Made by a program: the position numbers and the translations under genes. A stretch of DNA of 64,000 nucleotides from Panopea generosa. Lineage: Eukaryota; Mollusca; Bivalvia; Adapedonta; Hiatellidae. A model generated the notes under the pieces. The model was not told the origin of the DNA and searched no databases. It saw only the letters and a list, made by a program, of their open reading frames with translations. Below, piece after piece: positions 1 through 63,550 of the stretch. The stretch covers positions 63,031,078 through 63,095,077 of the forward strand of contig CM055895.1 of assembly GCA_029582155.1 (NCBI GenBank). The letters run 5' to 3'. The stretch's first letter is position 1. Every line of letters starts with the position of its first letter.

Positions 1-231
1 TCATATGATTTATTATTTACAAATTCCATAATAATGGAACGTTTAAAAGAAAACCCGCGTATTAAAACTTGTCTGCTTTGTTTCTTTGTTGGGAAGATAC
101 AATATGCATAATTTGTACGTTCACACATACAACAGAAACTGTCTAAGAGCTGAAATATGTTTTTGAACGTGAATAGAAACCAGCGATGGAGCTTGATAAC
201 ATCTACGGTCAGATATATTAAAAAATGAAAT

Positions 232-500
232 GAGATTGATTGAAAAGTTAGCGTCACGTTCATTCTATCCCGGGGTAACGTACGATCAGCCAACCTAACC
301 ACGCTTTCCTGCGATCCTGGAATGTTAATCAGTACTCCAGAACACCCCATCTCCGCAAGTAACTGATAACTTTCCCACTTGAATCAGTGGTGAGAGACGA
401 ATAGCAATGTGGCGCAATGTCGTATATCAATCATCGCGGAGACTGTGCTGGGCAAGGCTTCGAACTCACGACCCCCGGATTGATAGTCAGACGCTGCCTA
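232..500 (-). mobile_element. SINE family A copy in RADIL intron 7
   Basis: In reverse, it has the B box (GAGTTCGAAGCC), the GATTCAAGTGGGAAAGTTAT body, and the GACGCTAAC end with a short tail. It is degraded. It lies 40 bp beyond the exon 7 donor. Confidence 0.75.
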
Positions 501-542
501 CAAATATAATACACATGCATTATCACTGGCACATACACTCAC

Positions 543-1982
543 CTTCTGCCACGCCGTAGAGCGCTTTCAGTCGTCTAAGATGATTCCAAAATGACGTGTC
601 TTCCGGCGTACGGACAAGGTCTATCACACCGCAGTTGTCGGGCAGGGCAAACGGTGGGTGGGTAGAAAGAGGCAATATCCCAAATGCTGTAAAATAAAGA
701 AGGTATGATTATCAATAAGCATGGGAAGTTAGAAGTATTAAAATACACGCATAATAAATACTCTCATGTTACAAACGGCCATGTCGTCGCCCATTGGTGC
801 AATAAGGTACCAAGTGCATATGAAATAAGAAGGCACTTGGTACCTTTTTGCACCAATGGGGCGATGTATATTATGGATAGAAGGACAATAGCAGCTTACC
901 AGTCAGAAGAAAGGAATGGATAGTGGCATACTAGTTCATATGACAGTAAACGTTATGATAACATATTAATGATGATATCATAGACATTGTCATACTAGTT
1001 TATATGACAGTTGTGATAAAATATTAATAATAATATATAATCAATTTCCAATTGTCGTTTTAACATGAAAGGAAAACGTACACCAGTACTACTGGATCGA
1101 TTACGAGCAGACAAATGATTACATTGTCACCTTGTATTAATTACTATATAGTAGTGTAATATATTGATAAGTTGTAGTTTTATATGCTCGTTTCAGGTTA
1201 CCTTCTTTTTCTATCGCTTCTAATTCATCTCCTGGTGGGGTCCATGCTACAGGTAAGGTTTTACTACCCAAGTGGTAGTTTGTAAGCAGGTGATATAGCT
1301 GCCCGTGGGTGAGAGGCTGGTAGTGAGTCTTCATTATATGCCACTGGTACTGAAATTATAAACATATGAATTTACATATTTCATTTCTCTCAAAATGGAC
1401 CTGTTGGTTAAACTCATTTTTATAATTTAAGTTATGTATTGCAAGTATTATCATATAGTATCCGCGCTAGTATACACAACTGTCAGTAGCAGAAACGTCG
1501 TATACGCCGCAGCTTATATACATACCCAATCAGCTGCAACTGTATTCTCAGCAACCAAGTAACTTGCACATATTTATTGTTACCATCCCAAGCGCTACTT
1601 AAAATCCGTTTGTGTAGTAATTAATTTGTCTTCTTTGCATTTGTAACACAATTGTATAGTCCTTGCAGGATATTCAGGTGTGAGAATAGCTTTCTTCTCA
1701 GTTCTGTTATTATATACCTCTGTGTTTTGAATATATGTATATGTAATATGTTAATAACAAATATGTAGTGTTTAAACCAAATAACTTTTATCTAAGGTGT
1801 AATTTGTTATATGTAATTTATCAGTTAAAAATAACAAAGGTACCCCAAAGCGAGTTTTAGGAAATATTTGCTGCTGCATTTTCAAAATAAATTTGAACTA
1901 AAATGAATGTTAAGTTAAGATCGTCATGGGAGATTGAATTTATTCAAATGAGTTCTCTCGTTAACAAAATTCTTTATTATTA

Positions 1983-2023
<41 letters not shown>

Positions 2024-11000: not shown

Positions 11001-14000
11001 AGTTTGTCTCAGCCGAACCTGGTTAGCCCAGTCGGTAGCGCGATTGACTTTCAATACATGTTTCGTGAGTTCGAACCCCGCTCGGCCACAGCCTCAGTGA
11101 TAATTGATATATGACATTTCGTCTCATTGTCATTCGTTTCTCACCGCTGATTCAAGTGGAGAAGTTATCAGTTACTTGCGGAGATGGGTGTACTCGATTA
11201 CTGATTAATCGCCCAGGAAAGAGTGGGCAGTTTAACTAAGTGTATGTTAGCATTCGACGGCATAAGAATGACGCTAAAATACTCACACAAACAAGACCGG
11301 GCTCGATTAGCTCAATCGGTAACGCGCTTAATTATTACTCCAGGGGTCGTGAGTTCGAATCCCCGCCCGGCAACAGTCTCTGTGATGACTTATATCCGAC
11401 ATTGTGTCGCATTATCATTCGCCTCTCAACGTTGATTCAAGTGGGAAAGCTATCAGTTACTTGCGGAGATGGGGTTTGCTCGAGTACTGGTTAACCTTTC
11501 AGCATCCTGGGAAACAGTGGTTAGGTTAACTGATCGTCTGTCAGTCCTCGAATAAAAATGACGCTAAATATTCAACAATCAATCAATCAATCAAACAAAC
11601 AACAATTTGTCACTCAGAATGGATAATTAATCAATAGAATCACGACCAATAGTTCAATAACTTAAGTAAAACATATTAGAATATGTTTGTGACCCTGGAA
11701 TAGGTTATTTATCTAGTATCTAATACAAGACGGCTAGACTATATACAGTTATGCGGGAGCCAGTCTAAAATCATGATATCGCCTGAATGTTTTAGTATTT
11801 AAGTGTAAGCTGATGAAGCCTCAAGAAGTTCCATCAATATTTACTTAACTATGTGGATATTTAACGTGTCTATTTTATAGACATATAAGTTTGTTTAAGA
11901 GTCCTCCGTGGCCGAGTGGTCAATGCGCCGTCTCAAGATCACTGACCTCCCACCACTAAGGTCGTAGGTTCGAATCCCGCTCGTTCCAAAACCTTTACGT
12001 GAGAAAGTTTGCCAGTTACTTGCGGAAGGACGGTGGTTCTACTCAGATTCATTCTGGAGGGTTCCTCCACCAAAAAAAACTGGATATGCCATATATAGTC
12101 TGAAATGCGTTGAAAAATAGCGTGAAAGTACAAAAAAATAAAAAAAAAGTTAAATTGTACACATTTCTTGCACATATGTGTATTGCACGACTTTCGATAA
12201 ATTGCTATTTTATCATATGTGCGTTATACATGGCATTTTGTAATAGTTATGTTATCAAGCAGATGTCAATTATTTTAACATTTTTAAAGTACATTGATTT
12301 GAAAATATTTACATAATAACTTTTAAAACTATATTATAATAATATTAACGCTGCTAAACTGGTGTACACTTTAAAAGCGCATTTTGCAGTATACTGTTTA
12401 TATTCATTATTTACATAGACTGAATAAAAATGATCTAAATATTGATTTGTTAATTAAAATTCGATTCAAATCAACGCTGTTAAGCACTTGAATGAACAAG
12501 ACCCAGGTAAAATAAGATTGCTATCGAAGGGTGTGATGCCTATTTAATTTTTAACTAGCCCGAAACTAGACTTCATGGGAAATTAACAGGTATTAACCCA
12601 ATAGCAAAACGGCGGTGATAAACATATTCGTTTCAAATTAAAAATTAATTCGCCGGAAATAAAATGTATTGAAACTACCATTAAGGTTTTAGTTTAAAAA
12701 TTAAACCTGTGTAAGCTAAAATTTGACAGATGGCTTAATCATAGTGTTGTGTTTGTCAATAAGGCAAAAACACCGTATTCCTTCATGTTTTCGTTGGCAT
12801 TAAATTAATAATTTAACATGCATTGCTTAGGACGCGTTATCTGCATATGAAAATACTGTTGCCCGATGGGGTTTAGGAATTACGGTCTTCCGCTATGAAC
12901 ATATAATTCTTTAACGTGCTGAGATTTTAGAAAGAGCATGTCGTATAAACCTAATTTAAAATTTATTTTATTTTAATTCTGAAACAAGTTATCATAACTA
13001 AGACAAATCACGCTCGAAGTCTTCCTGAGAAGAACCAGTACTAAGCATACGCGGAAAAGTGTCTTGCTCAAAGACATCACACACAACCGTGGCGAAAGAT
13101 CGAACCAACGGCCCTTCGATCATGGGTTCGATGCTTTACCACCGGACCACGTGCTGTCAGATAATCAAGAAAACATTTTCCTTACAAATAGAAGATATGA
13201 CCCATGGACGTACACAAAAACTTATTGTATTTGCTTGAACAGTATGAGTATTTTAGTACTGGCAAAGTAGTCTATGCCTGAATGGATCTAACAAGATTTT
13301 GCCGTATTAATTAGCGGTATATTTCCTAAATAAACACCCGTTTAGCCTCAAACATTTTATCTCCGATGTCAATCTTATGTATCAACTATATTTAATTGTA
13401 GTGTTATAGTATAGCGCTATGCCTTCAAGTTTGATACCCATGTCAGAACGGCGTATGGCGATTTTTAATTCATTATTCATTGTCTCAACGACTAAATCCT
13501 TGAGAAGAATATAAATTATTAACAATTAAGGGGGGCTTATTTGCGTGACCTACGTATGCGCACCGATGAATTGCCAAAATATTTTAATTTATCAAAAGGG
13601 CACCGACAGCACGACACGAGACGATATGCCACTCAGTCAACTCCTGTAATGTCTTAATTCTAATATAAACAGATTTAAGTATATCAAATATATAAATGAA
13701 TTAAAATTATCTTACTTACAAAGGCTTACTCGGATAATATTTAATTGTTCAAACAGTTTGGAGGATTAAATCAATTAAACCAAACATCGACCCCGTCAAA
13801 TAACATTAAACGGTGATTCGTGTTTAATTGTGGTCCTTCAAATGCTGATTATTCACCAATATTATGATACCCAGATGACTTTTAAACAGTAAAATCCGTT
13901 CTATACCCACAGTTAACAGGTAAACAAGACGATATGTAAACGGGACGAAGATGGCCTGAATTATAACTGTCTCCATTCGAGGATATATTTCAACACATAT

Positions 14001-16040
14001 AACAAACACCCACGGCGCCGAATATAAGCGTAAGCGTCTGCATTCCATTAAAACATGAATAAACTAATTTGATATTTATAGAATAAGCTGTTTCATTAGA
14101 AAATAATTAAGAAGATGACATTGAGTTTTCCCTTTCTTTCTTCAGATAGTATCGTCAACAAAACTGTTATTTTGAATGTATTGATATAGTAGCAGTCAAT
14201 GGTTTATTTTTATTGAATTTAATGTATACCGTCATCTTACCACATATTATCGTTTGACTAAGATGGCTAGACTTGGGAAATGCATCGTCGGAGTTTATAT
14301 TACTTTCTTTATTAAGTACATTGTACGCCACTTATTTCACAAAGTCTGTTTGTTCCTATCACTTTATGGAACGTTAGTACCCTATATAACCGTTCTGGCT
14401 TATTTTAAAAAACTTACCGCTACATTCTCCCTGACGGTGAACAGAATCCTTAGAAACAAATGTTTCAGCTGTCGTCTGTCAAAGTTTCTGCTGGCGTACT
14501 CGATGCACATGCTGAACAAGAACGCAACAGTAAGCGCGTACGTCTGGCACGTGTTTTGTTGCTGGATTATTGCACATATATACTTCACTAGCTCTTCCTC
14601 CTTATCTTTAGTGTAAGCAAACGACATTCTCTCCGCAATGGACGCATCCATTGACTCGTCCGTGTTCGATTTAGATTCGTCGTCTGCGTTTCTCAGATTA
14701 AGTCTCAAATCACAGTTATCACTCTCGCTGTCACTGTTTCTTGATAATTCTATTATTGGTTGCCATGGCAACGCAAGAGGTACGTCGAATCCTTTGCTGC
14801 AGTCCTTGAAAAGCAACGCATAATATATCCCAATGTTTAGAATATCACCGCTTTTGATCACTGTTTTACCGTGAATTTTATGACCATTTACACAGACGTT
14901 GTCAACCAACGGATTAAGTTCCAGAAAATAATTATTTCTTTCATCATTTGGATCACTTAGTCCATTGCTCTTTTTGAATCTGTACACTTTGAAATTACAA
15001 TGAACGGGGTCTATATCGGGTGCATAGAGATTAAATTTTGGTACATCATCTTTTGAATTTTGAAGTTTTGAACTTGGGTTTCCAAATGTAAACTGCTTCC
15101 ATTTTATCACATACATGGTTCTATCTTTTAAGACATCAAATCCACGAACATTTACGAAAAACGGATGTTTTGTGGGAATTGTAAAGTCTATTTCCTCTGA
15201 ACACGTCCTCCTAGTGTCGTTTGGTTGTTGTTTACATGCCGACGGGTCGTTATCCGGAAAATCGTTCGACAGAAGAGTAGAATCTGAACGCAGAACAGAG
15301 GAATAATCCATACTTAATCCATTCGAATGGCACGATAATTTAGAAGCATCAAACAACGGAATTGCGCCTGGACGCAGTTTCGACATTAGAATTTTTCGGG
15401 CATTTTTATTTATACCGGAAGTATCATCGTCATCTGTACTATCAGTCACGTGAGCCCGTTCATGCAATTCGTATCGTCTGCTATATTTGTCGATAGGTTT
15501 CCAAAACTTCTGTAACAACAGAGGTTTGTCACGATCTGAAAGAATTCTAGCGTATATCCTTTCCCATTTGCCTGAATGTTGGTCTTCTGAATTGTTTACA
15601 TCTGGTGTTGTTTGTTCAAATTCATATCTCCCAACCACATCACACAACACAAATTTCCTATATTCAACCGGTGGTAATCCAAATCGTTCCAGAGCTTGTT
15701 TCACGAGTTCTTGAGCGGTTGATCGACATGATGCGAGGACGCTTTTATACTGAACACCTGGCAAAATAGTTTCCCCAAACACCTTCAATACTCCAGGCGT
15801 ATATTGATCGGTGGACAATTCCGCGCTCTCTGCGTTGAAAACACTCAGTTTATTGGTAATGGTCTTTTTCTTCTCCCTGGTGAGTGTCGCGGATCTCTGG
15901 TGATCTGTTGTTTCTTCTGTGAAAGCTTCCATCGCCTGGTCAAACATTTCACTGACCGACGACTTGTGCTGCGTGTTATCGAAAGGAAAATCGTAGGGTG
16001 CTGAATGCCTTTTCCAATCATTTCGAGCTATTTTTTCCAT
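543..16040 (-). CDS. RADIL: RADIL/RASIP1-type Rap effector (RA-FHA-DIL), 3' part outside window
   Basis: Coding exons on the minus strand, 5' to 3': 16040-14418, 10832-10795, 4338-4062, 2916-2703, 2273-2101, 1349-1202 and 686-543. All have AG/GT borders and matching phases, giving 872 codons plus one base. Exon 1 encodes 541 residues. A Ras-association domain lies at about 80-190 (TPGVLKVFGE, YKSVLASC, FVLCDVVGRYE, DKPLLLQKFWKP) and an FHA domain at about 290-415 (YAPDIDPVHC, VCVNGHKIHGKT, LNIGIYYALLFKD). The DIL domain begins near 485 and continues through exons 3-7 (QYFNWQSGVRVRANL, GQLYHLLTNYHLG). This order is that of vertebrate RADIL and RASIP1, effectors of Rap1-GTP in cell adhesion and migration. 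A C-terminal PDZ domain, if present, would lie off the left edge. The start is the first ATG of a frame that aligns with RADIL near residue 75. An upstream 5'UTR exon was not identified. RADIL is preferred to RASIP1 by resemblance from memory only. Confidence 0.94.
781..869. mobile_element. Fold-back element (37-nt arms) in RADIL intron 6
   Basis: Arms 781-817 and 833-869 are reverse complements with a few mismatches (core CATTGGTGCAATAAGGTACC against its complement) around a 15-nt loop. It is most likely a small MITE; a transcribed hairpin is possible but unsupported. Confidence 0.7.
920..1040. repeat. Imperfect direct duplication of about 60 bp
   Basis: CATACTAGTTCATATGACAG (931 on) recurs as CATACTAGTTTATATGACAG (991 on), followed by similar ATATTAATGATGATAT-type sequence. 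Confidence 0.65.
1975..2049. repeat. (TTA)n and poly-T tract beside RADIL exon 5
   Basis: About 13 TTA/ATT units then about 24 T, ending 52 bp from the RADIL exon 5 end. On the RADIL strand it reads poly-A then (AAT)n, just inside intron 5. Confidence 0.95.
2920..7015. other. RADIL introns 3 and 2 (part): no further gene seen
   Basis: Apart from RADIL exon 4338-4062 this is AT-rich unique-looking sequence. Short frames (for example 5782-6069 plus) lack recognisable motifs or splice context. Confidence 0.5.
7020..9835. repeat. 2.8-kb minisatellite in four blocks, 43-45 bp units
   Basis: It lies in RADIL intron 2. Block 1 (7020-8100) has about 25 units of 43 bp (core GTGGTACTAGAGAATATACA, TTTGGTTATAATTCATT). 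Block 2 (8101-8575) has about 10 units of 45 bp (CAGGATGGTACTAAAGATAG). Block 3 (8580-9405) is a higher-order repeat of about 130 bp made of three diverged subunits (TACATGCATTTAT). Block 4 (9406-9830) has about 10 units of 43 bp (CTACAGGACTGTGCTAAAGA). All share the core TACTAAAGA, TATACATTTGTTTATTATT. Open frames inside it come from repetition. Confidence 0.95.
10452..10543 (+). mobile_element. SINE family A fragment (body only)
   Basis: Matches 11092-11180 almost base for base (GCCTCAGTGATAATTGATAT, TTTCTCACCGCTGATTCAAG). It lacks the tRNA head and the 3' end. Confidence 0.75.
10795..10832 (-). other. RADIL: 38-nt RADIL microexon (coding exon 2)
   Basis: Flanked on the minus strand by an acceptor ending in ATTACAG and a donor GTAAGT. 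It starts in phase 0, matching the end of exon 1 after Ala541. Its 38 nt leave two bases (TG) that join the first base (T) of the next exon to make Cys. It encodes ETAKSLSASKFT plus the split Cys, falling where vertebrate RADIL has a short linker (after the RETVWEK region) inside the early DIL domain. The phase fit on both sides is the main support. Transcript evidence was not available. Confidence 0.85.
11014..11293 (+). mobile_element. SINE family A, first unit of a head-to-tail pair
   Basis: tRNA-like head (GGTTAGCCCAGTCGGTAGCG, B box GAGTTCGAACCCC), the family body (CGCTGATTCAAGTG, TTATCAGTTACTTGCGGAGA) and the end motif ATGACGCTAAAA. Confidence 0.85.
11296..11602 (+). mobile_element. SINE family A, second unit of a head-to-tail pair
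   Basis: Same order of head, body and end motif as the unit just before it, with a (CAAT)n-type tail (AATCAATCAATCAAAC). It lies in RADIL intron 1, antisense to the gene. Confidence 0.85.
11901..12149 (+). mobile_element. SINE family B, complete copy
   Basis: tRNA-like head (TGGCCGAGTGG, then GGTTCGAATCCC), a central body (GTGAGAAAGTTTGCCAGTTA, CTTGCGGAAGG) and an A-rich tail. It lies in RADIL intron 1, antisense to the gene. Confidence 0.85.
12150..14400. other. RADIL intron 1 (part): nothing beyond one tRNA-like repeat
   Basis: AT-rich non-coding sequence. Only the tRNA-like repeat at 13064-13160 stands out. The frame at 13824-14048 (minus) has no recognised motif. Confidence 0.5.
13064..13160 (-). 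mobile_element. tRNA-like repeat head (SINE family D), copy 1
   Basis: The minus strand has GGTCCGGTGGTAAAGCATCG (A-box like) and GTTGGTTCGATC (B-box like). No body was recognised, and acceptor stem pairing is too poor for a functional tRNA. Confidence 0.45.
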
Positions 16041-16044
16041 TGTG

Positions 16045-17180
16045 TAAATTTTATTGAATAGAAAATAAATCTATAATTTCAAAGGCAATATTTATCCGCT
16101 GTATGTATCAATTACAACTTTACGTTTTGCTCTTTATGCACACATTAACACTTCACCAATACAAGAAAGGCTCCATTTAAACCTTAATGGCAGTATTACG
16201 CGATACGAGTATATATAAATACACGTAATTACAACTCCATTGTGAAAAATCATTTTCAAGTATTTCCCATTGAGTAATCGTCCAGTCTTCCACTTCCGAA
16301 CCGCCTGAAATAATTGAAAACAATATTCCTTTTTGTTATTTAATAATAAGTGCAAATTGAATAAAATAACTTAAATCACTTGAAATTAATCAATACAGTA
16401 GTCCATATTGATTATATTTTTATATGTCGTTATCATTTAAAACAAACGAGAACTGCAAAACGCATGTTTCTTAATAAAAAGAACATCACAACCATCCTAT
16501 GCAAAATCTTCTCTATATTTAAACTGGGGATTTAAGAAGGACTTGATTAGTCGATTTTCTCACAATACTTCATCTGATATTACTTTATTGCATCGATGGG
16601 CGATTGAAGATATTGTTGAGTCAATTTACATATTTGTGCAAATGTTTTAATGAGCCATAAACCGCTCTATTATCCCCAATTGATCAACTGCGCATGACGA
16701 ACAATTCGGATTCAGTCGTGATTTATCGTCTAGTTAAATACCGCTTCCCCGCCATTTCCACAATGGATATTGTATTATATGTAAGAATGTAAAGAGTTAT
16801 ATTCATAAGGATATTGATTTGATGTCATTCGATTTTATTTTTTCAAATGTTCCAATCTAACGCACACATGTACTGCATCAAGCCTCATTTGATTTATTAA
16901 CTTGCGTGTTTAATATTAAATTCAATATGATACCCAGTATGTGAGATGCAGTATGCGCCGATAAAATATTAAACCATTCCTCACAACTGGCTAAAGCACA
17001 ACACGAACAGATGACACAACATGCAAGTATAAAGTATAGCACAACATGGGATAATAAATGAAATTTAAAACTGAAATATGCACATATATATAATACACAT
17101 CCCGCCATAATAATACAGGCTTTATTTAACATGAGATTATCGCACAGTCAAATGAATAGCGCATATTCATCAATGAAACA
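16045..17180. other. Upstream of RADIL coding start: promoter/5'UTR region, not resolved
   Basis: No clear TATA box, CpG-rich stretch or 5' exon could be picked out. A minus-strand acceptor-like tract lies close to the ATG, so an upstream non-coding exon is possible. Confidence 0.35.
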
Positions 17181-29382: not shown

Positions 29383-29664
29383 ATGTTGATGGTTTTTTTT
29401 TGTAAAACTAAGAAAATTAGTTTATTATCGTTGAACACGTGTGGTGTAACTTATAATCGTGATTGTCATTGTATTCAATTGAATATTTGCTTGGCATACA
29501 TAGGATGTTCTTCGAACTCGGACTGCTTATGTGGCTATAACTTACCTTTGTTTGATACAGTATGCAGCAGCTATAAACGGAATTACGTATTATTTACTCA
29601 AGCGTCTTTAGTTTATAATATGCTATTATATATTTTTTTAATCTGCAATCATGATAAATCTTAA
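29383..29664 (+). CDS. Small Cys-rich ORF between LINE ORF1 and ORF2 (function unknown)
   Basis: A 93-codon frame with ten cysteines, ending 14 nt inside the start of ORF2. Its segment KKISLLSLNTCGVTYN resembles the start of the ORF2 endonuclease (KKLNLLSWNATGLMSS), and the DNA there is also similar. It may be a decayed partial duplication of the endonuclease start rather than a real gene. Low confidence that it is translated. Confidence 0.3.
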   Translation: MLMVFFCKTKKISLLSLNTCGVTYNRDCHCIQLNICLAYIGCSSNSDCLCGYNLPLFDTVCSSYKRNYVLFTQASLVYNMLLYIFLICNHDKS

Positions 29665-32600
29665 GAAACTTAACCTATTATCGTGGAATGCAACAGGTTT
29701 AATGTCTAGTAGCACTTACCTATGCAATTCTTTGAACGGACTATCGATAGATATTTGTGGTGTTTCAGAACATTGGTTATCAGATAATAATATACATTTT
29801 ATAAGTTCTCTAGACAATAATTATAAAGCACATGTTGTTACTGACTCTAGTTTAAATGTTAAAGGTAGCAGACGAGTCGGTAAAGGTGGCGTAGCTTTGC
29901 TATGGCATATTAAATATGATAGGTTTGTGACACCGATAACTATTGATGATGATAGAATAGTTGGTATACAAATTCAATATACACGCAGTCATTTTTTGTT
30001 TATATTTCAAGTGTATTTACCATGCAGTAACCATCCCATTGAAAGCTATAGGAATAATATTGACAAGCTTTTCAATTTATGGAGTTTATATTCAGAAAAT
30101 GGTTTTGTTATATTTATGGGCGACTTCAATGCAACCTGTTCAAAATTCCCAAGTAATAGCAGAGATCAATCATTCACACAGTTCTTGAATGATACTAATA
30201 TGATCTCTGCTAATACATTGGATATGTGCACCGGTGCTTCATCATCCTTTGTATCCTACGATGGAAAGTGTGAATCGCTTATTGATTTCATCATTTTGCC
30301 AGTTGAGAAAACAGATTGTATTACTCATTGTGTAATAGTAGATGACGATTGTCTAAATGTTTCAAGACATAGACCTATTAAATGTAGTCTGAATATGCCT
30401 TCGACTGGTTATAATGACGATGTGTCGAATGTAAATATTTCGCAATCATATAATATTAACTGGAAAAAAGTAAGACAAGTTGATATTACATCCTATCAAA
30501 ACATGCTCAATGCATCAGAAGATTTGATAAAAGCACAAAATTGTCCGCTTAAATGTCCTGCTGAAATTGATAATATGTATAAAATTTTAAGCGAGACTGT
30601 TGTTTCTTGCTCAGATAAATGTTTTCGCAAGACGAGATTTAAGCACTTTTTAAAACCGTATTGGAATTCAGAGTTATCTAATTTACATAAAGTCATGTTA
30701 GAAAAACGGAAAATCTGGATTCAAAATGATAGACCAAGAGATCAATCACATTATTCTTATAAAAGTTATAAAACAGCAAAATGTTATTTCAGAAAAAAAC
30801 ACAGGTATTTTGCCAATGAGTATTTAAAAAATCTTGATGAAGAAATTGACACAACCGCTGAACTTGATAAAGAACAATTTTGGAAATTAGTGAATTCGCG
30901 AAGAAAACGGTCATCAAGAAGAGCAGGCGCTGAAATAAAATTCAATGGCGTAATGTATAGGGATAACGACAGTATTACAGAGCAATGGAAACAATATTTT
31001 GAATCGTTATATACCCCGTCAATTGATAGTAATTATGATAATATTTGGAAAGCTTCTGTTGACGAAAAAATAAATTCTGTTATATCGCAGTCTAGATTTT
31101 GTATTGATGACGTCATTAATGTGTCACAGGAAGAAGTAAGAACCTCAATTGCATCGTGTAAACGCGGCAAAGCCAGTGGGATCGATAATGTTTCTTACGA
31201 ACATTACATTTTTGGCGGAAATATAGTTATTAATACATTAGCAAAACTGTATACAGCTATGCTGTCCCAAAGTTACATTCCACCAAACATGAACAAAGGC
31301 GTCATTATAACATTACATAAAGGCGGAGGTAAACGTAAGGATGATCCCAATAATTATAGAGCAATCACATTAACTCCTACTGCTCTTAAACTATATGAAA
31401 ATATACTTCTTTCACGTTCCAAACAAAAACTTCTTTCTAATTTAAGTAATCAACAAGGGGGGTTTCAGGAAGGACTTGGTTGTTTGATGACTTCCTTCGC
31501 ACTAAAAGAATGTATTTTATATGGCAGAGAGCACAAGAGCAAGGTTTTTGTTTGCTTTTTAGATGCTCGTCAAGCTTTTGATAGGGTGTGGCATAATGGA
31601 CTTATGCTCAAATTGTTTGATAGCGGCGTTACAAACTATATATTTATGTCATTCTTTAATATGTATCGTAATATGCAAAGCTGCGTACGAAACCAAGGGT
31701 CGATTTCTGAGTGGTTCAATGTTCTTCAAGGAACAAGACAAGGGGGTAAAAGTTCACCAATATTATATCTTCTTTTCATTGATGGTCTGATAAAAGACAT
31801 AGAAAGTAGCAATCTTGGGTTGTGTATTTTTAACTTGAAGGTTGGTACCCCTACCGTCGCGGATGATATGGTTCTTGTATCGTATTCAAAGTCAGGTTTA
31901 GACAAAATGCTAGATATTTGCTACAAATATTCCATAAAATGGAGATATGATTATAATCCATTAAAATGTGCTATTGTTGTTTTTAATGAATCCAAACATA
32001 ACTTTGATAAAAACTGCAGATCATGGAAACTAGGATCTAGTAACATTATTCATGAAACAGAAAATTATACACATCTAGGAATTATATGTGACAAATATAT
32101 GTGTATTAGTGATCATATTCGACAGTCAAATAATAAGTTACGTGGACTTTTTTTAAGTCTTATTAATAGTGGCTTACATCCGCATGGTCTTAATCCCTTG
32201 ACAACATTAACAATATATAAGTCAATCGTAATACCAAAATCCCTATATGGTTGTGAATTATGGAATTCATTAACCAAATCAAATATTATACAACTAGAAC
32301 GAGGACATAGATTCTGTATAAAATTTATCCAAAATATCCCACAATATGTAAATACGGATTTTGCTTTAAGCTCTATTGGTGTAACTTCACTTGAAACGGA
32401 AATCGACTACAGGAAGCTACAATTCTTTGGTCAATTATGCAGACTCCCGAATAAGTATATTGCTAAGCAATTATTTGTTAATCGTCTGTTAAAATATCTT
32501 AGTGATGATAAACAAACATTAGGTTTTATTCCTGACATCTATAGAATATTAACGAAGTATGATCTATATAATTATTTGGTTAATTATTCTAAAACAGCAA

Positions 32601-33106
32601 TATTTCCATCCAAGTATGCATGGAAATATATTCTTAGACAAAAAGTGCTAATACATTACTCAAATACAATGTTAATGAGGTTAGGTGACAAGATGGGTCC
32701 ATCATATGTCATGAATATGTTTAGCATAAATAGGCCTTGCTTCCTATGGCAATTAAGTAGGAAAAATCAGTATGTAAAAGCACAATGTTTTACAGCAGTG
32801 TCACTACTAAGTAAACTGCAATCGTTTACAGCTGTACAGCTATGTAACAAATGTAATACGCTTGTAGATAATTTAGTACTACATATTGTTCATTTTTGTA
32901 TTGCAAACACTGTCGAAAGAAATAAGCTTTGGGACGCAGTTATAACGACCTGTGGTCTTCAGGTCTTTAATTCATTTATTAAAAAGACGCCTAAAGATCA
33001 GATTTATGCACTGCTTTCCGGGCTTAATGAATATTTATCTGACATTGAACAGATTGAAGATGTATTATTGTTCAATATTGGGATACTTCACAGTATGTTA
33101 AAGTAA
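29651..33106 (+). CDS. LINE ORF2: APE endonuclease + reverse transcriptase (1151 aa)
   Basis: The N-terminal endonuclease/exonuclease/phosphatase domain (about 5-250) keeps its catalytic motifs: LLSWNATG with N13, SEHWL with E40, MGDFNAT (D158, N160), LIDFIILP and SRHRPI with H240. The reverse transcriptase (about 500-800) shows KASGIDNVSYE, NYRAITLTPTALKLYE, FLDARQAFDRVW (D638, D644), QGTRQGGKSSP and the VADDM active site (D738, D739), then YTHLGI. A C-terminal Cys/His cluster (C1065, C1068, H1078, C1083) fits the CCHC knuckle of many LINEs. No RNase H domain was seen. The protein nicks target DNA and copies element RNA at the nick. All key residues are present. Confidence 0.95.
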   Translation: MINLKKLNLLSWNATGLMSSSTYLCNSLNGLSIDICGVSEHWLSDNNIHFISSLDNNYKAHVVTDSSLNVKGSRRVGKGGVALLWHIKYDRFVTPITIDDDRIVGIQIQYTRSHFLFIFQVYLPCSNHPIESYRNNIDKLFNLWSLYSENGFVIFMGDFNATCSKFPSNSRDQSFTQFLNDTNMISANTLDMCTGASSSFVSYDGKCESLIDFIILPVEKTDCITHCVIVDDDCLNVSRHRPIKCSLNMPSTGYNDDVSNVNISQSYNINWKKVRQVDITSYQNMLNASEDLIKAQNCPLKCPAEIDNMYKILSETVVSCSDKCFRKTRFKHFLKPYWNSELSNLHKVMLEKRKIWIQNDRPRDQSHYSYKSYKTAKCYFRKKHRYFANEYLKNLDEEIDTTAELDKEQFWKLVNSRRKRSSRRAGAEIKFNGVMYRDNDSITEQWKQYFESLYTPSIDSNYDNIWKASVDEKINSVISQSRFCIDDVINVSQEEVRTSIASCKRGKASGIDNVSYEHYIFGGNIVINTLAKLYTAMLSQSYIPPNMNKGVIITLHKGGGKRKDDPNNYRAITLTPTALKLYENILLSRSKQKLLSNLSNQQGGFQEGLGCLMTSFALKECILYGREHKSKVFVCFLDARQAFDRVWHNGLMLKLFDSGVTNYIFMSFFNMYRNMQSCVRNQGSISEWFNVLQGTRQGGKSSPILYLLFIDGLIKDIESSNLGLCIFNLKVGTPTVADDMVLVSYSKSGLDKMLDICYKYSIKWRYDYNPLKCAIVVFNESKHNFDKNCRSWKLGSSNIIHETENYTHLGIICDKYMCISDHIRQSNNKLRGLFLSLINSGLHPHGLNPLTTLTIYKSIVIPKSLYGCELWNSLTKSNIIQLERGHRFCIKFIQNIPQYVNTDFALSSIGVTSLETEIDYRKLQFFGQLCRLPNKYIAKQLFVNRLLKYLSDDKQTLGFIPDIYRILTKYDLYNYLVNYSKTAIFPSKYAWKYILRQKVLIHYSNTMLMRLGDKMGPSYVMNMFSINRPCFLWQLSRKNQYVKAQCFTAVSLLSKLQSFTAVQLCNKCNTLVDNLVLHIVHFCIANTVERNKLWDAVITTCGLQVFNSFIKKTPKDQIYALLSGLNEYLSDIEQIEDVLLFNIGILHSMLK

Positions 33107-55100: not shown

Positions 55101-58100
55101 AACTTCTCCTCTGAAACCACTGGGCCAATTTTGATATAACTTCACAGAAATGTTCCTTGGGTGACTCTTTACCAAGTTTGTTCAAGCCATTTTGATTTGT
55201 CAAAAAACATGGCCGCCAGGGGGCAGGGCAAGTTTAATTAGTAAAAACATAAAAAATCGATTTTAAAATAATTTCACAGAAATGTTCCTTGGAGGACCCT
55301 TCACCAAGTTTGTTCAAACCGTAGTGATTCGTCAAAAAACATGTCAGCCAGGGGGTGGGGTTAGTTTACTATATAAGCTATAGTAAAAACTTAAAAAATC
55401 TTCTTGTCAGAAACATCTGGGCCAATTTTCATATAACTTCACAGAAATGTTCCTTGGGTGACCCTCTACTAAGTTTGTTCAAGCCATTTTGATTCGTAAA
55501 AAAACATGGCTGCCAGGAGGCGGTGCAGTTTTAATTAGTAAAAACTTAAAAAAACTTCTTGTCAGAAAGTTTGTTCAAACTGTAGTGATTCGTCAAAAAA
55601 CATTGCGGCCAGGGGGTGGGGTTAGTTTATTATATAAGATATAGTAAAAACTTAAAAAAGTCTTATTGTCAGAAACCACTGGGCATGTTTTGATATAACT
55701 TCACAGAAATGTTCCTTGGGTGACCCTCTACCAAGTTTGTTCAAGCCATCTTGATTTGTAAAAAAACATAGCCACCAATGGGCGGGGCAAGTTTAATTTG
55801 TAAAAACTTAAAAAATCTTCTTGTAAGAAACTACTGGCTCGATTTTAAAATAATTTCACAGAAATGTTCCTTGGAGGACCCTTCACCAAGTTTGTTCAAA
55901 CTGTAGTGATTTGTCAAAATAACATGGCGGCCAGCGGGTGGGGTTAGTTTACTACATGTATATAAGCTATTATAAAAACTTAAAAAATCTACTTGTCAGA
56001 AACATCTGGGCCAATTTTGATATTACTTCACAGAAATATTCCTTGGATGACCCTCTACCAAGTTTGGTCAAGCCATCTTGATTCGTCAAAAAAGATGGCT
56101 ACCAGGGGCCGGGGCAAGTTTAGTTAGTCAAAACTTTAAAAATCTCCTTGTCAGAAACTACTGGAATGATTTTAAAATATTTTCATAAAAATGTTCCTTG
56201 GAGGACCCTTCACCAAGTTTGTTCAAACCATAGTGATTCGTAAAAAAACATTGCGGCCATGGGTTTGAGGTTAGTTTACTATATAAGCTATAGTAAAAAC
56301 TTAAAAAGTCTTCTTGTCAGAAATCACCGAATTGATTTTAAAACAATTTCGCAGAAATGTTCCTGGGATGACCCTTTACCAAGTTTGTTCAAGCCGTTTT
56401 GATTTGTTCAAAAACATGACCGCCACAGTGAGGTGCTAGTTTACTATTTAGGCAGCTATAGTAAAAACTTCAAAAGCCTTCTTGTCAGAATCTATTGACC
56501 TGATTTCGATGTAATTTCACTGACATTTACCATGGGTGAACCTTTACAAAGTTTGTTCCAGCCATTGCGATTCGTCGAAAAACATAGTCGCCAGGAGGGG
56601 AGTCTGGTTTTCTTTATATGAATATATAGTGAAAACATTCTTTCGATATCTGATATCCAGATATCCGCACAAGGATACTATTGTTATCGCACAACTCTTC
56701 TACGCATCTGTTACATCTTCAAAACAAATCAAAATTATATCTACTTGCATATATATATTATATAATCTACTTAAGTTGTGTAATTCAAGGTCACTTAGGT
56801 GAGCGATATAGGGCCATCTTGGCCCTCTTGTTTATAAAGCAATTACAATGCTGATAGATCTATACATGATATAGCATTTGTTTGATATCAACAGTTTAAT
56901 ATGCGTAATTATTGATGTTTAGACAAAACTATCAGCATGAGTATGCACTCAAGGTCATATTTCATTTCCTATTATCTGTATTATTTGTGAACAGTTTCAA
57001 TATAACGGTCAGGTGTTCCTATTGTACTCTTCAAAATTCAAGATGGTGACTAAAAGAAAAGGAGAAAAATTAATAGAAATATCGATAAAAACAAGCAACT
57101 GACAAAATATTCCGCTTGATGATGATGTTGACAACATCACTGCACTGTCACTGCAACTTCCTTTGTCTGTCGCTTTGAACTTACTGTTAATTTATTTAAA
57201 AGAATCTTGATTTTTTTTTATTCTTTTGATATATTTCTTTCAGATTGAGGTATAGAATACAAATATCATTTTACAGTGTCTTGTCCAATATAGGTTTTTT
57301 ACCACACTACATACTCTTACAATATATTTCCATGCTGTACAAAACACAGTAAAATAACCTTATACTATGACATTGTAAATGGAATAAGCACTCATAAGTT
57401 TTCTAATGAAGCAGTTTTAGCTTGAAGCCTTCTCGAGTCATTAGTTGACTGTTTGAATATTTGAATTCACAACCCCTGGATTGGTTGTCAGATGGCTACT
57501 AATGAGCCAACTGTGCCCAGCTCTGTAGAATAAGCATGATTATCAACATCTCCTCTATTCGAGCCAAAATGTTTTACGAAAACAGGGCCTCTTCAAGACA
57601 TTGGACACATGCTATAATATTTTTTTCAGTTGGCACGGGCAGCCCAAGAGCTACTCATGTCCGTATGCATGAACTGTGTAGAACATGATGCGAGTGACAT
57701 GGAGGCTATGTCTTTACTGGTCAAGATGAGGATGAAAACAAAGCCACTTATAAATCACTATCTCAACTGTATCAGGTAGGGGGAAAATAACATCTCCTTC
57801 AATGTAAATCATTATCTCAACTGTATCGGGTAGGGGGAAAATAATATCTCCTTCAATGTAAATCACTATCTCAACTGTATCTGGTAGAGGGAAAATAACA
57901 TCTCCTTCATTGTAAATCACTATCTCAACTGTATCTGGTAGAGGGAAAATAACATCTCCTTCAATGTAAATCACTATCTTAACTGTATCTGGTAGAGGGA
58001 AAATAACATCTCCTTCAATGTAAATCACTATCTCAACTGTATCAGGTAGAGGGAAAATAACATCTCCTTCAATGTAAATCACTATCTCAACTGTATCAGG

Positions 58101-61100
58101 TAGGGGATAAATAACATCTCCTTCTTCAATGTAAATCACTATCTCAACTGTATCAGGTAGGGGATAAATAACATCTCCTTCTTCAATGTAAATCACTATC
58201 TCAACTGTATCAGGTAGGGGGGAAATAACATCTCCTTCTTCAATGTAAATCACTATCTCAACTGTATCAGGTAGAGGGAAAATAACATCTCCTTCAATGT
58301 AAATCACTATCTCAACTGTATCAGGTAGGGGGGAAATAATCTCATTCTCTAATGTAAATCACTATCTCAACTGTATCAGGTACGGTGGGAGGGGGAATAA
58401 CATCTCATTCTTCAGTGTAAATTACTATCTCAATTGTATTGGGTAGGGGGGAAATAATGTCTCCTTCTTCAATGTAAATTACTATCTTTAGAACATTGAC
58501 ATATGTTAAGTTTGGCAGTAACGATTTATCACCAGATTTTTTTGTAAATGTTATACATTTTATAAAAAGTTTCAAATTGAGGCTGTTGAAGAAATATAAA
58601 ACGGACTCAAGCATTTAAAACGGCCACTCTTGTTCTATACAGTAATTGATAACATCTTAGGTTAAACACAATTTACAAGAAAATCCCTGAACAGATCCAT
58701 CTGAAATTTTGCATAAGTGTCCTTCAGAATATGTTTCTTTATTCCTGAAAATATGAACATTTATCTTAATTAAAGCCTCATAAATTTCTGAAATGCACAC
58801 TATTTGATAATAACAAAAATGATTGTAATTAAATGTGTTTATAGTATTGCTAAAACTATTCATGTAGACCCATTTGTGACTGTTTTAAAAAAGCGAGAAA
58901 ATAAAAACTTCGATCGAAATGTGTGTTTCTTAGACGAGAACATTTTTGTAATTCGGTAATGACTGGGTTGCTTTCCGACTGTCCCTACGCCAGTGTTCGG
59001 AAGTACACAAATGAATACTGCAGTGGTAGTGTTTAGATTAAAACTAAGATAAGGGGTTCATTAACAAGATTAGAAAACTATGGCTTCACTAATATTATGT
59101 ACTGTATTTTTTTTGTTTTTTTTTGTTTAAAATATATAATATTAATGTCTGCAATAAAACTGTATTGAACGTAGTATGCACTATATCAGTTATACGCACT
59201 AAAAAACAATGAGTACAGAATATTAGTTTGGTCTAGTAACTCTTGATCCTCCCTTGCATATATGTGTGATACTATTGCATGTGCTGTCACAAATCACTTT
59301 ATCGCAGTCAATATTGAGAGGCTACCAAGGATGGTTTGTTTAGAACAGTTATTAAAAAGTTATTTTGTTTTTGATTATATATGAATGAGTCATTGCTTAA
59401 TATGTGCTTGTGGGTTCAGTTTATTAATACACTGAAGGGAATAAAGGGGACATTCTTAAAAACTATTTAACCGCAAGCAGTTATATAATTTTTAACCGCA
59501 TCCCCAACAGTTCCCAAAACTATGTTTTTCTCTGAAGTGAATTGATCATATATTACCGACCAACACGTTTCCGAAAAACCTTCGTAACTCCCCGTTTTCT
59601 GCCGAAGGTGTTTATCGGAAAGAGAAGAACATTAATTTGTAAACATAACCCATTCTTAATTATGTACTAATAATGTGCTTTATTTATGTTTTTATTTGCA
59701 AAGTCTCTCAGTGATCAAATAAACATGTATTCTATCATCTAGAAAAGTAAAACTCACTTAAATTAAAACTAAAAATGACCGTTTTGGAAGTTAAATGAGC
59801 CTTTAAGAAATGTCAGAAAAAAGTTTTTGTTGTCTGCTTGAAAATTGGATTTGACCTCCTGGATGATTGGCAGGTTGGCTAGGAGCTAGCTGTTGTATTA
59901 GTCACACACTGAATGCATGTACATGTATTATAGGAATCTTACATGGTTTGAGGTTCTGATAGAAAATTCTGCCGAGTTCCCACGACAGCAGTTGTCCCAG
60001 GGGATGGAATTTTCTATCCGAACCGAAAAAGTCATGAATGATTCTTTTTCTTGCATACCAATAATATTAAACAATTATTTTAACTTAATTTATCATTAGA
60101 GATTTTACAACAACCACTTTAAAGATGTTTAATTATATGATTTACGTCATTTATTTTATATGTTACGTCATCTACATGGTTCCAGGGTCACAGCACAAGA
60201 ATTTTATCTTGGCCCCGGTATAAATGTAGATATACTTATTCGGGTGCAAGAAAACTTCATTGAAAACTTTACATGCTATCAGATTACAGTTATATGCATT
60301 CTCTCTCACAGGCAGTTTACTTCTCAGTATCTACCATGTGTGGCGGTATTTTACTGATGCAATCCCCAGCCTTTTAATTTCATTGTATATATGACAAGTA
60401 CTTATAATTGTCTTATAGATTAATTAGAAAAATATTATCTTTAAGATATCAGGCTGCTCCACAAGTGTAAGAGGAGTATGTATGCATTTTACATGTAATT
60501 ATTCAATACACAAAATCGGTATGGTCTGTGAACTTTTCTAAGAAAATAAATACATGTACTATGTGTGTATACATGTTCAATAGATGGTATTCGGAATTGG
60601 TCTGACCACGTTTTTCCATGTAGCTACGGACATGATAGGTCACATGATTTATTGAAAATTACTTGTGCAGAAAATAAATTGTGAAGTCCAAGCTGACCGT
60701 TTTGGTACACTTGTTTTTTACCTACATCTACTTGTACTGGGAAAACACAATGTGACACCTTATCTGAAACACGTCTATTCACATGGATGTAACAAGTTTT
60801 CTGTGAAATTTTGCTATACCTTTTTAATTAATACCGTTGTTTATGTTCTTGTCGCTTGTGCTTATTGCTTATTGCTTCCATTTCTATCCCACTTTTTTTT
60901 TACTTGTTACTTTTGTTGTCCGTACAATACAGGTAGTTCAATAACACTGATCACAGCCAATATTTTATATTTGTTTTAATAATTTCTCTTTTAACCCTTT
61001 ACTCCATAGATACCCATTTTCCCACACCAATCACTGAAGGCCATTGAAAACAGTGCAGGAAGAGTTCAGATTGCTCGTAACGAGCAATCTGAACACTTCC

Positions 61101-63550
61101 TGCACTGTTTTCCACTCTGTCAGTTAATATAAACATAATTCACCCATTGCTGATATGTGGTGAATTAATGTTTTCAACATTAGAGGTGTCCAAAGGCGTC
61201 TATATAAAGTAAAGGGTTAAGTGAGTGGCCTGTTGTATGGGTTTATACAATGTATGGCATTATTACTTCGATAGATGTTCATTTGTACTATGTTGTTACC
61301 CACTTTACAAACAACTTTCAGAGAATTGCTGACTCAGCACCCAGACAACTTGAGAATGGTTCTCACCCACACTATTTACAATGAGCTGTCTACAGCCAGG
61401 AACACCAACAACATGTCACTTATTGGTGTTGTTTTCCAAACTAAACCTGAAACTGCTCCCAGGGTAATTATGTACAATTATATTTAATCATTCAACACTG
61501 ACAATCCAATTTACATGTAGATGTGATCATCCTGAAACATTGCCTGGTTATCACACTATGAAGATGATTGATTGAATATTTAGCGTCATTTTTATGCCAT
61601 CGAGGGCTAACAGACAATCAGTTAACTTAACCACTGTTTCCTGGGATCCTGAAAGGTTAACCAGTACTCGAGTACACCCCATCTCTACAAGTAACTGATA
61701 ACTTTCCCTTTTTTGTCAGCAGTGAGAGACGCATAATTATGAGACACAATGTCGTCAGTTATCACAGAGACTTTTGCCCGACACACAAACTCATGGCCCT
61801 TGGATTGGTAGTCAGATTTGTAACCAACTGAGCTAATTGGGCCCGGCCCTATGAAGATGAACTTACATGATTGTATGGTTTTGATGGTTTCATTCTCAGT
61901 GATATTTTTATCATATTATTTATTATTTTCATAATAAAGTGGGGGTAAGATTAACGTTTGCTATCGACAAGGAACGTTTATCTTGCAGCAACACACAAAC
62001 TGATGATGTCATTGTTTTTGCATTGTGTTTAGCCCACATTAAAACACTTTTCTGACCATAAATAAACTGTTTATTAGGCCATCCATAAAAAAAAATTTGT
62101 TTGCTGTGCTCTGGCCCACTATTTTTCATGTGGGTAGGTACATGTACATTTAGGTAACTAATTTTTTTATTGCCAAATTTTAATTTTGCATAGTCATTTT
62201 AAAGAAAAATGGACCAAAATCAACCAGCCCCAGATGTCAGTTGTCTCATATGATAATAGAAGGCAAATAAATTCTCACCATTGGTAAAGTTAAACCATCA
62301 GGAAATTGAAATAAAAATGAAACCGTCAACACTTATCTACATGTATCTCATATTGAAACATGACTAAGATGCTTTTTTAGAATCTTGTGCGGTTCGCTGC
62401 TGAGGCCATAAGTATAAGCCTCAAATAAGTCATTTATTAAACCACAAATTGAAAAAGTTGCCAGCTACTTGCTGTTTCTTTAGATCATACACTTGGGTAT
62501 TGAGGTTGTCCTTGGCAAAACAGGGCATAAATTTGGTTTGACTTGTTTGGCAAATTTACTCCATTTGACAAACACTGAATGATTTTATGTATATTACAGA
62601 TATTAGCGGAGATATTCCAGGACTTGCTGGTAAACAAGGACGATTATCTACGTGCCTTGCGGGCCTTGTTCCGGGAAATAGTGAGGTCACTCAGGCATGA
62701 CATTGACTTCTCCTCCTTTTGCCTGGGTCTGATGCAGGAGAGATCTGAACCCAAGTTTACAGACATGGAACCAGCATATAGGGTATGTATATATAGAGAT
62801 CCTGTCCAAAATGTACAGACATGGAACCAGCATATAGGGTATGTATATAGAGATTTGATTAAAAGTTTATATAATTATATAGAGACTCAATACAAAATTT
62901 AAAGACATGGAACCAGCATATAGGGCATGTTTATATATAGATTCGATTCAAAGTTTACAGATGTGGAACCAGCATATAGGGTATGTATATAGAGATTTGA
63001 TTAAAAGTTTATATAATTATATAGAGACTCAATACAAAATTTAAAGACATGGAACCAGCATATAGGGCATGTTTATATATAGATTCGATTCAAACATTAC
63101 AGATGTGGAACCAGCATATAGGGTATGTATATGTAGAAATCCAGTCCAAAATGTACAAACATGGAACCATTTTTAGAGTTATGAACACACAGAGGTTTGA
63201 GCCAAAATTTTCAAACACATTACATGTAAATGGGTATATTAACAAATAACGAATAAGTAAACAATTTCTTTTATAAAAACTTACTTTATTTATTGTTTTG
63301 AATTATGTTAGCATAATGAATTATGGTACTGCAAGGAGATATTGTTCATTGAAAATTCTCTTTAAATCATTATTTGTTATACATGTAATTTCTTGTACAT
63401 GTACAATGGTCTTTAATATGGGTACATTTTAACATCTGCAGGAGCGGTATATGGTGTCTGTTACAGACCTTGTAACCATGTGTATACTACAGGCCATTAC
63501 ACCATCTGTTCGTGAGGCAGTAGCTGCCATAGCCAGGGGAGATAAGAAAG
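49161..63550 (+). CDS. INTS1: Integrator complex subunit 1, N-terminal quarter (runs off right edge)
   Basis: Exons: 49161-49212, 50001-50297, 50918-51114, 51541-51678, 52573-52720, 53489-53597, 54716-54902, 57630-57775, 61322-61463, 62600-62782 and 63442-63550. All have AG/GT borders and compatible phases, giving 569 codons plus one base of a protein usually near 2,200 residues. Recognisable INTS1 segments in order: PPGDLFALGSK, KRDSTSLLTPA, LCGTVRYLHGNRSKPD, SVLACNVMM, YIDDALGERVWVD, TATCGYGEVRLLASQKLELW, AQELLMSVCMNC, IYNELSTARNTNNM, FQDLLVNKDDYLRALRALFR and FCLGLMQERSEP. INTS1 is the nuclear scaffold of Integrator, which cleaves snRNA 3' ends and terminates paused Pol II. The ATG has A at -3 and G at +4, with an in-frame TAA upstream at about 49144. 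The first intron is short and the exon 1 peptide (MDARGKTIHGKRPVKGKG) is basic. Confidence 0.96.
49675..49905 (-). mobile_element. Degraded LINE-derived fragment in INTS1 intron 1
   Basis: The block TCTATTCCAAGTAGGGATGG followed by TCCTTGGGAAGAGACTGTAC parallels 45355-45395 of the LINE fragment (ATTCCATTCCTGTATGGTCC), suggesting a related but older C-terminal fragment. Similarity is patchy. Confidence 0.4.
51743..51998 (+). mobile_element. SINE family A, first of a head-to-tail pair in INTS1 intron 4
   Basis: Head GGCCTGGTTAGCTCAGTC, then the body (CTGATTCAAG, AAGTTATCAGTTACTTGC) and the end (AAATGATGCTAAAC). The B box region is shortened. Confidence 0.8.
52001..52276 (+). mobile_element. 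SINE family A, second of a head-to-tail pair, with (CATT)n tail
   Basis: Head (AAGCTCAGTCGGTAATGC, GAGTTTGAATCCCC), body, and the end motif ATGACGCTAAAC followed by about 13 CATT units (52219-52272). This tetranucleotide tail is typical of the family. Confidence 0.8.
53671..53920. mobile_element. MITE with 40-nt inverted ends in INTS1 intron 6
   Basis: Left end AAGGCCATCCTTAAAAAATA, TATTGTTTGCTGTGCTCCTA. The right end, read on the minus strand, is TTAGGCCATCCTTTAAAAAA, TATTTGTTTGCTGTGTTCCT. No open frame. Confidence 0.85.
54182..54443 (-). mobile_element. SINE family A copy in INTS1 intron 6
   Basis: Reverse-oriented, complete from the tRNA head (GAGTTCAATTCCCGGCAAGG on the minus strand) to the GATGACATAAAATG end. 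Confidence 0.78.
55011..56833. mobile_element. Non-autonomous element with internal tandem repeats in INTS1 intron 7
   Basis: It starts with a hairpin (GCTTACCTGAGCC, GGCTCACAGGTGAGC) and ends with AGGTGAGCGATATAGGGCCA, TCTTGGCCCTCTTGTTT, where AGGGCCATCTTGGCCCT is palindromic. The interior is about ten copies of a 150-bp unit (ATAACTTCACAGAAATGTTC, CTTGG, CCAAGTTTGTTCAAGCC, CATGGCCGCCAGGGGG). Ends and internal motif are of a type I recognise from bivalve genomes. No coding capacity; superfamily not determined. Confidence 0.8.
57460..57520 (-). mobile_element. SINE family A head fragment in INTS1 intron 7
   Basis: The minus strand reads a tRNA-like head (CTGGGCACAGTTGGCTCATT, GGTTGTGAATTC) with no body attached. 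Confidence 0.55.
57776..58500 (+). repeat. INTS1: Minisatellite made from the INTS1 exon 8 end and its 5' splice site
   Basis: The unit is 54-57 bp and begins with the last 26 nt of exon 8 (AATCACTATCTCAACTGTAT, CAG) plus the donor GTAGGG, then GGAAAATAACATCTCCTTCA. About 12 full copies and a fragment follow the true donor at 57776. Most keep CAG|GTAGGG or CTG|GTAGAG. The 197-codon minus frame is a by-product of the period. Confidence 0.95.
60995..61216. mobile_element. 222-bp TTAA-flanked MITE with internal hairpin in INTS1 intron 8
   Basis: Flanked by TTAA at 60991-60994 and 61217-61220. The ends are CCCTTTACTCCATAGA and, on the minus strand, CCCTTTACTTTATATAG. TTAA target sites plus CCC-starting ends fit piggyBac-type MITEs. 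At 61046-61112 lies a hairpin with 32-nt arms, one mismatch and a 3-nt loop. Confidence 0.85.
61565..61848 (-). mobile_element. SINE family A copy in INTS1 intron 9
   Basis: Reverse-oriented full copy. The minus strand begins GGGCCCAATTAGCTCAGTTG, and the end motif is followed by a (CAAT)n-like tail at 61565-61575. Confidence 0.8.
62083..62210 (-). mobile_element. Partial second copy of the intron 6 MITE, in INTS1 intron 9
   Basis: TTAGGCCATCCATAAAAAAA and the following sequence (TTTGTTTGCTGTGCTC, TTTTTCATGTGGGTAGG, TTGCCAAATTTTAATTTTG) match the reverse complement of 53800-53920. The other end is missing. Confidence 0.8.
62783..63180 (+). repeat. INTS1: Minisatellite made from the INTS1 exon 10 end and its 5' splice site
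   Basis: ACATGGAACCAGCATATAGG, the last 20 nt of exon 10, recurs at about 62818, 62906, 63046 and, with ATGTGG, at 62963 and 63103; a truncated copy is at 63157. Each is followed by GTATGT or GCATGT. A block of about 140 bp (62840-62980) is itself duplicated at 62980-63120. Confidence 0.93.

Follow-up and report, generated by a model that had tools for sequence, protein, structure and literature searches.

A minisatellite made of an exon end and its 5' splice site in the INTS1 gene of Panopea generosa, and arrays of like design at other exon ends

In amphioxus, minisatellite-like duplications of intron-exon boundaries, known as mirages, have repeat units of 10 to 160 bp, vary in length, at Adh3 also somatically, and are reported to leave regular splicing undisturbed (PMC3087553, PMC3902484). 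The DNA analyzed in this work, a 64,000-nucleotide stretch of the bivalve Panopea generosa (the window; contig 2, positions 63031078-63095077, of a genome of 1.474 Gb assembled in 39 contigs of up to 101 Mb), includes an element that can be compared with them. The end of an exon of INTS1, together with its 5' splice site, is the first copy of a minisatellite that extends into the following intron. Integrator is an RNA-processing complex, and the INTS1 gene is essential. We consider it quite likely that the array is a near-neutral product of tandem duplication over the 5' splice site, in which the exon-proximal donor would be used and aberrant mRNAs would be destroyed.

As is the case for mirages, the INTS1 unit lies over an exon-intron boundary, many units carry the AG/GT splice signals, and the units are homogenized with a diverged edge (PMC3087553, PMC3902484). 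Unlike amphioxus, where both boundaries are affected, the cases found here are at 5' splice sites, three of them in one gene. A second related system is found in human ABCA7, in which a 25-bp variable number tandem repeat (VNTR) that starts at the exon-18 donor affects splicing through its length, and in which the use of a second donor retains one unit and leads to a frameshift and a premature stop (PMC5954066). Both the ABCA7 and the INTS1 arrays hold the exon's own GT donor and extend into the intron; however, the former reportedly has the GT as its start, while the INTS1 unit also has 25 coding bases. Undisturbed splicing and somatic instability have been reported for amphioxus, and length and isoform data exist for human ABCA7, whereas the arrays described here are known from assembly sequence alone. 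The human CBS gene has a 31-bp VNTR, c.1444_1467+7, with 16-21 repeats in people, which by its name covers a 5' splice site with 24 bases of coding sequence and 7 of the intron (PMC2630376). The gene and the unit are both other than those in INTS1. A minisatellite with repeated donors is also said, according to the title of a report, to be present in the interferon-induced transcript of gene 6-16, presumably IFI6.

Among invertebrates, a 27-bp minisatellite with a varying number of copies has been reported from an intron of a TSSK1-like gene of abalone, and the excerpted text does not describe it as spanning a boundary (PMC6905558); minisatellite repeats and exon duplications that are absent from the transcript have been reported in an earthworm (PMC12783039). 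The open-licence papers listed by our searches included none on an exon-end array in INTS1 or in any mollusc. The kind of array is already known; what is new is the genome, the finding of three cases in one gene, the second gene, and a testable idea of self-repair by units with AG/GT. The INTS1 exon 8 array can be considered ordinary in kind and striking in number.

The array at the end of INTS1 exon 8

The INTS1 exons were located by comparing three reading frames with the INTS1 protein of solved Integrator structures (7cun_A, which we take to be human). The gene is on the + strand, with its first clear phmmer match to 7cun_A at window position 50920, and its exons are collinear with 7cun_A and extend past the downstream end of the window. 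No match was found for residues 265-313 or for the N-terminus, and the name exon 8 follows only the numbering of an earlier reading that was made from the letters of this DNA (the sequence-only reading); the numbers of exons 10 and 11 follow from it. That reading had assigned the gene to INTS1, recognized the end of exon 8 and placed the start of the next exon at 61322, and the phmmer matches agree with it in all three respects (Table 1). The reading frame enters exon 8 in phase 0 and leaves it in phase 2 (..ATC AG/, the slash indicating here and below the end of the exon or of its copy), as checked by frame and GT/AG. Joining 57775 to 61322 removes an intron encompassing nucleotides 57776-61321 and restores an AGG (Arg) codon, the third base of which is given by the exon at 61322, so that the aligned protein is continuous. 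Exon 10 joins the exon at 63442 in frame.

The first copy of the minisatellite consists of the last 25 exon bases (57751-57775) followed by the true GT donor, and 12 more copies are found downstream in the intron. The repeat unit covers the 5' splice site with 25 bases of coding sequence and 29 bases of intron. The sequence-only reading had described an exon end and donor amplified into the intron in the right orientation as about 12 copies, and this description is confirmed by the array identified with Tandem Repeats Finder (TRF): the GT is kept in 13 of 13 units, and AG/GT in 8 of 13, the exon copy included. The 26 coding bases attributed to the unit have to be reduced to 25, as base 57750 is A in the exon and G in the other 12 copies, and the BLAST matches start at 57751 in 11 of 12 cases. 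The distance between consecutive donors is 54 nucleotides in seven instances, 57 in three, and 55 and 63 in one each. The inner units are homogenized (the identity matrix shows units 7 and 8, and units 6 and 10, to be identical), while identity to all others drops to 73-89% for units 12 and 13 of the 3' edge, which rank among the most diverged. Concerted evolution that leaves out the boundary of the cluster is seen at the 3' edge and not on the exon side, where the first unit is 93-96% identical to units 2-6. A comparison of variable sites (7/26 in the half derived from the exon vs 11/28, Fisher P = 0.40) gave no sign of purifying selection on this half. An antisense open reading frame (ORF) of 214 amino acids that lies over the array (57714-58358) was attributed to the divisibility of the period by 3 and discarded as an artefact; none of the 7992 candidates sharing most words with it that were scored reached E≤0.001.

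The amino acid sequence at the exon end, INHYLNCIR, corresponds to NHFMLCIR in 7cun_A and to LINHYLxC[IM]R in the protein fragments P0001-P0004. Six protein fragments match exon 8, and three of them, P0001-P0003, end at the identical Arg, which indicates that the exon end is conserved. The exon half of the unit is conserved protein sequence and the exon is therefore the source of the array. The reverse order of events, in which the exon end came from a minisatellite already present in the intron and the exon was not the seed, would take advantage of the richness of this genome in minisatellites (200 kb of arbitrary sequence have 37 loci, which amount to 19% of the 195 kb unmasked, and minisatellites make up 11% of the 129,923-bp INTS1 region), but an exon end that is conserved in 7cun_A, and in P0001-P0003 with the frame ending at the identical residue, makes such a slide from intron to exon extremely improbable. 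P0001 and P0005, from other contigs, carry the 5' part of exon 8 twice in one frame with an apparent intron end between the two, and P0006 has a copy that departs early from the exon sequence. These structures suggest that a boundary duplication may have occurred at the other, acceptor, end of exon 8 in other genomes. Of 29 exon 10 relatives, the 10 that were read show no obvious repeated exon end in the single frame visible for each.

A search of the 1.47-Gb genome that skips very common words gave one match to the array, and the INTS1 domain PF12432 is found at a single locus. The array is therefore not an inserted dispersed satellite, and a dispersed intronic satellite, for which related copies at other loci were not found in this search, was rejected. 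Tandem arrays are error-prone in assembly, and an artefact could have inflated the number of copies or misplaced the array. However, the copies show differences from one another and are individually marked, and the array is present once in an assembly with few and long contigs, which argues against a simple artefact although the copy number may be wrong; independent arrays of like design are found elsewhere (see below). We regard an assembly artefact as very improbable.

Table 1. Coordinates of INTS1 exons, splice sites and exon-end arrays. Positions are those of the window unless a contig is given.
Feature	Position	Strand	Evidence or description
INTS1 exon 8	57630..57775	+	146 nt; phmmer 7cun_A residues 381-428, E 1.3e-12
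Exon 8 minisatellite	57751..58487	+	TRF: period 54, 13.2 copies, 90% matches, score 1038
Authentic 5' splice site	57776..57777	+	CAG/GTAGGG
Stop TAG met when authentic donor is skipped	57777..57779	+	ORF 57618-57779 ends here; translation
Decoy GT donors (12)	57830..58444	+	57830, 57884, 57938, 57992, 58046, 58100, 58157, 58214, 58271, 58325, 58380, 58443
INTS1 exon after exon 8	61322..61463	+	phmmer 7cun_A residues 427-480
INTS1 exon 10	62600..62782	+	phmmer 7cun_A residues 475-541; ends ..GCATATAGG/GTATGT
Exon 10 minisatellite	62756..63169	+	TRF rows 62756-63132 and 63017-63169; 6 copies
INTS1 exon 11	63442..63550	+	AG at 63440-63441; weak phmmer stretch (0.4 bits) and in-frame join
SNF2-domain exon	C6:71009174-71009299	minus	ends TGTPVQNNLK/; ..ILTGTPVQNNLK/GTAAGT
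SNF2 exon-end array (L047)	C6:71008724-71009233	minus	50-bp unit of exon end and donor; at least 510 bases

Arrays at other exon ends

The exon 8 array is one of several such arrays and no peculiarity of exon 8. At INTS1 boundaries, a copy was scored when at least 23 out of 26 bases matched no more than 400 nt away. By this definition 3 of 19 INTS1 donors have a copy of their own exon end, all three being among the 16 with protein support (weak for E11 and E23), while E1, matched below threshold, E13 and E27 were judged by eye. None of the 19 acceptors has such a copy (best 16/26). The candidate exons E12, E14 and E28-E32 were left out of both counts. E4, E24, E25 and E26, the donors of which are ambiguous, do not enter the count, and no copy was found for any of their candidate GTs (best 15/26).

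The array at exon 10 starts with the last 27 bases of the exon and the donor AGG/GTATGT. Its donors are GT at 62783, 62839, 62981 and 63123, and GC at 62925 and 63067, and its copies end in AGG/G. The remaining INTS1 case is past the window, at an exon that ends at position 74505 of the INTS1 region (IIQRQ/) and matches residues 833-885 of 7cun_A by phmmer. This exon end and its donor, CAG/GTATGT, are duplicated to give two copies within region 74479-74543 (L003 2056-2120), and the copy after 74506 ends in TGG/GT. In an unrelated family, we sampled 20 of 57 listed SNF2-domain exon matches, picked for short open frames and few stops, the ends of which are not always exon ends. One of the 20 begins a 50-bp array of the exon-end design, which includes 10 unit ends in 510 bases; the next six bases are visible for nine of them, GT being present in 9/9, and the units end in AAA or AAT. 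The best copy at the remaining 19 ends was at most 20/26. More than one gene is affected in this genome, namely INTS1 at three exons and an SNF2-domain gene at one.

Two additional arrays were not counted as exon-end cases. One of them (L005; region 96673-97593, contig 2 63127750-63128670) follows an exon-like ORF (..DRSETQ/) without a gap and has 27 copies of a 34-bp unit with CAG/GTATGT. Neither this ORF nor the neighboring candidate exon showed homology, and the ORF possibly belongs to the poorly conserved end of INTS1 or to another gene. The other (L020) has units GGCAG/GTAAGT; no exon could be recognized upstream of it, and its flank resembles what we take to be a tRNA-derived repeat.

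Whether these cases are significant varies with the null model. A point placed at random falls within an array's first unit with a probability of 0.013, and under this null the finding of 4 of 39 donors has P = 0.0016; P is 0.013 for 3 of 38 when the exon 8 case is removed, and 0.23 for the SNF2 sample taken alone (1/20). Under a looser null that includes array interiors, 5.0% of 3000 random 26-mers have a nearby copy of at least 22/26, and the corresponding values are P = 0.13 for 4/39 donors and P = 0.066 for 3/19 in INTS1. The sample of 39 donors is small and partly post hoc, and the excess of exon-end arrays at donors is suggestive only. An enrichment of donor motifs in array units (4/63 vs a shuffle mean of 0.84) was set aside as post hoc, two of the four being the 74479 and 96673 arrays of the region, and no claim is made from the genome-wide counts of a triple CAGGTAAGT pattern (248 and 482 vs 150 and 161 for reversed controls), in which matches within an array are not independent. 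It could be proposed that minisatellites of this genome preferentially arise or survive at 5' splice sites, with donor ladders at several percent of its exons, and that AG/GT ladders repair themselves. We consider this proposal quite unlikely, and the looser null gives a donor preference no support; if it were true, recursive splicing and new introns would have a constant source in donor ladders. The three arrays in INTS1 and the one among 20 SNF2 exon ends nevertheless suggest a wider class, the copy number of which could vary between individuals and affect splicing.

Donor choice and the consequences of distal donors

Past a skipped first donor the frame reads AGG TAG, and all 12 distal donors lead to the same truncation at about residue 428, in an exon of 200-813 nt vs 146 nt with the true donor. 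The sequence-only reading had predicted that a distal donor would add repeat-coded sequence or a stop. The stop is found; its location at the first donor means that repeat-coded protein never arises. Messenger RNAs with early stops far upstream of later junctions are generally decayed. The description of the decoys as near-perfect fits 4 of the 12, which are identical to the true donor from -3 to +6. The other eight differ, mostly at -2 and +5, and in the five that lie closest to the exon (units 2-6), changes at -2 and/or +5 make the donor weaker than the true one. The weakness of these near decoys is not taken as proof of selection because units 3-5 have one common 9-mer. When duplex energies were calculated with what we take to be the U1 sequence, the true donor tied for the best value, -11.2.

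These properties bear on the possibility that the array is active in splicing, i.e., that distal donors are used appreciably and a fraction of dead mRNA that depends on copy number tunes the level of INTS1, in the manner of the human ABCA7 VNTR (PMC5954066). In addition to this precedent, such a dosage element would have at its disposal 12 decoys, including the four identical ones, and by U1 duplex energy the 737-bp array offers 5 sites, one of them the true donor, that equal or surpass this donor, vs 1 in 11,159 bp elsewhere. Simple consensus matching, however, gives 6 such sites in the array, again with the true donor, vs 18 in the 11,159 bp, which means that comparable decoys are common in introns. 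The five nearest decoys are the weaker ones, and amphioxus mirages are reported to be harmless to regular splicing (PMC3087553, PMC3902484). Taking both sides into account, we think that a role in dosage is unlikely.

A different reason for tolerance could be found in the acceptor potential of the units. The sequence-only reading stated that none of the decoys is preceded by an acceptor tract. This is doubtful, as 7 of the 12 intronic units (units 6-12) have AG/GT, and their CAG, with an acceptor score of 2.4, ranks at the 94th percentile among 501 intronic AGs and exceeds 5 of the 19 INTS1 acceptors from which the matrix was built (one of them, E13, judged by eye). The true acceptor of the intron, that of the exon at 61322, has the lowest score of the 19, -2.4. 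The segments that donors 6-12 (7/12) would retain are GT-AG and 270-604 nt long, and a self-repairing or recursive splicing route is possible on paper: a retained segment could be removed, with the AG of a unit acting as acceptor and recreating CAG/GTA, so that the exact mRNA would be restored and the array would be harmless. On the other hand, units 2-5 and 13 have no AG, and the acceptor matrix is built on 19 sites. The exon 10, 74506 and SNF2 arrays also lack AG/GT at their unit ends, and self-repair therefore cannot be the general reason for tolerance. As an explanation of the exon 8 array we find it distinctly improbable. Intron gain by tandem duplication over AG/GT has been discussed, a duplication over AG/GT yielding GT-AG segments (PMC3087553), and human tandem repeats at exon-intron boundaries are said to form novel introns (PMC2812944). 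The INTS1 duplication differs in that it took place at an existing intron, and it shows the raw material proposed for this process.

The near-neutral explanation can be formulated as follows. A tandem duplication over the boundary of a conserved INTS1 exon and its intron would have started the array, and unequal exchange or slippage would then have increased it to 13 copies. The spliceosome would mainly select the exon-proximal donor, which is equal to any decoy and defines the shortest exon, while mRNAs made with distal donors would stop at once and be cleared by nonsense-mediated decay. The array would hence be close to neutral and belong to the mirage class as in amphioxus, and an equivalent process would have struck other INTS1 exons and another gene in this genome. 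Weighing against this explanation are the facts that both donor choice and mRNA decay are deduced from sequence, and that the exon-end excess under the first-unit null, which persists at 3/38 without the exon 8 case, goes unexplained by pure neutrality alone. In its tolerance of 12 extra donors, INTS1 could serve as a natural test of the choice made by the spliceosome among near-identical 5' splice sites.

Other features of the window

Another array, at 7011-9820, consists of a 43-bp unit that resembles a 3' splice site of the + strand (TTATTCTGTTACAG/GATGG) and is repeated about 65 times (TRF gives 17.1 and 47.5 copies). It was rejected as a set of repeated 3' splice sites, as it lies between domains of a minus-strand gene and is thus on the wrong strand. 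This gene encompasses nucleotides 1-16070, has an RA domain (14403-16070) and a DIL domain, and is presumably RADIL-like. An open ORF of 1154 amino acids at 29642-33106 has endonuclease and reverse transcriptase domains, and we assume it to be a retrotransposon of the long interspersed nuclear element (LINE) type. Upstream of INTS1 exon 8, a tandem repeat of 155-165 bp is found at 55260-56585. Units that look similar by eye are present in two of the arbitrary samples (L018 and L021), and this repeat is perhaps a dispersed satellite-like element.

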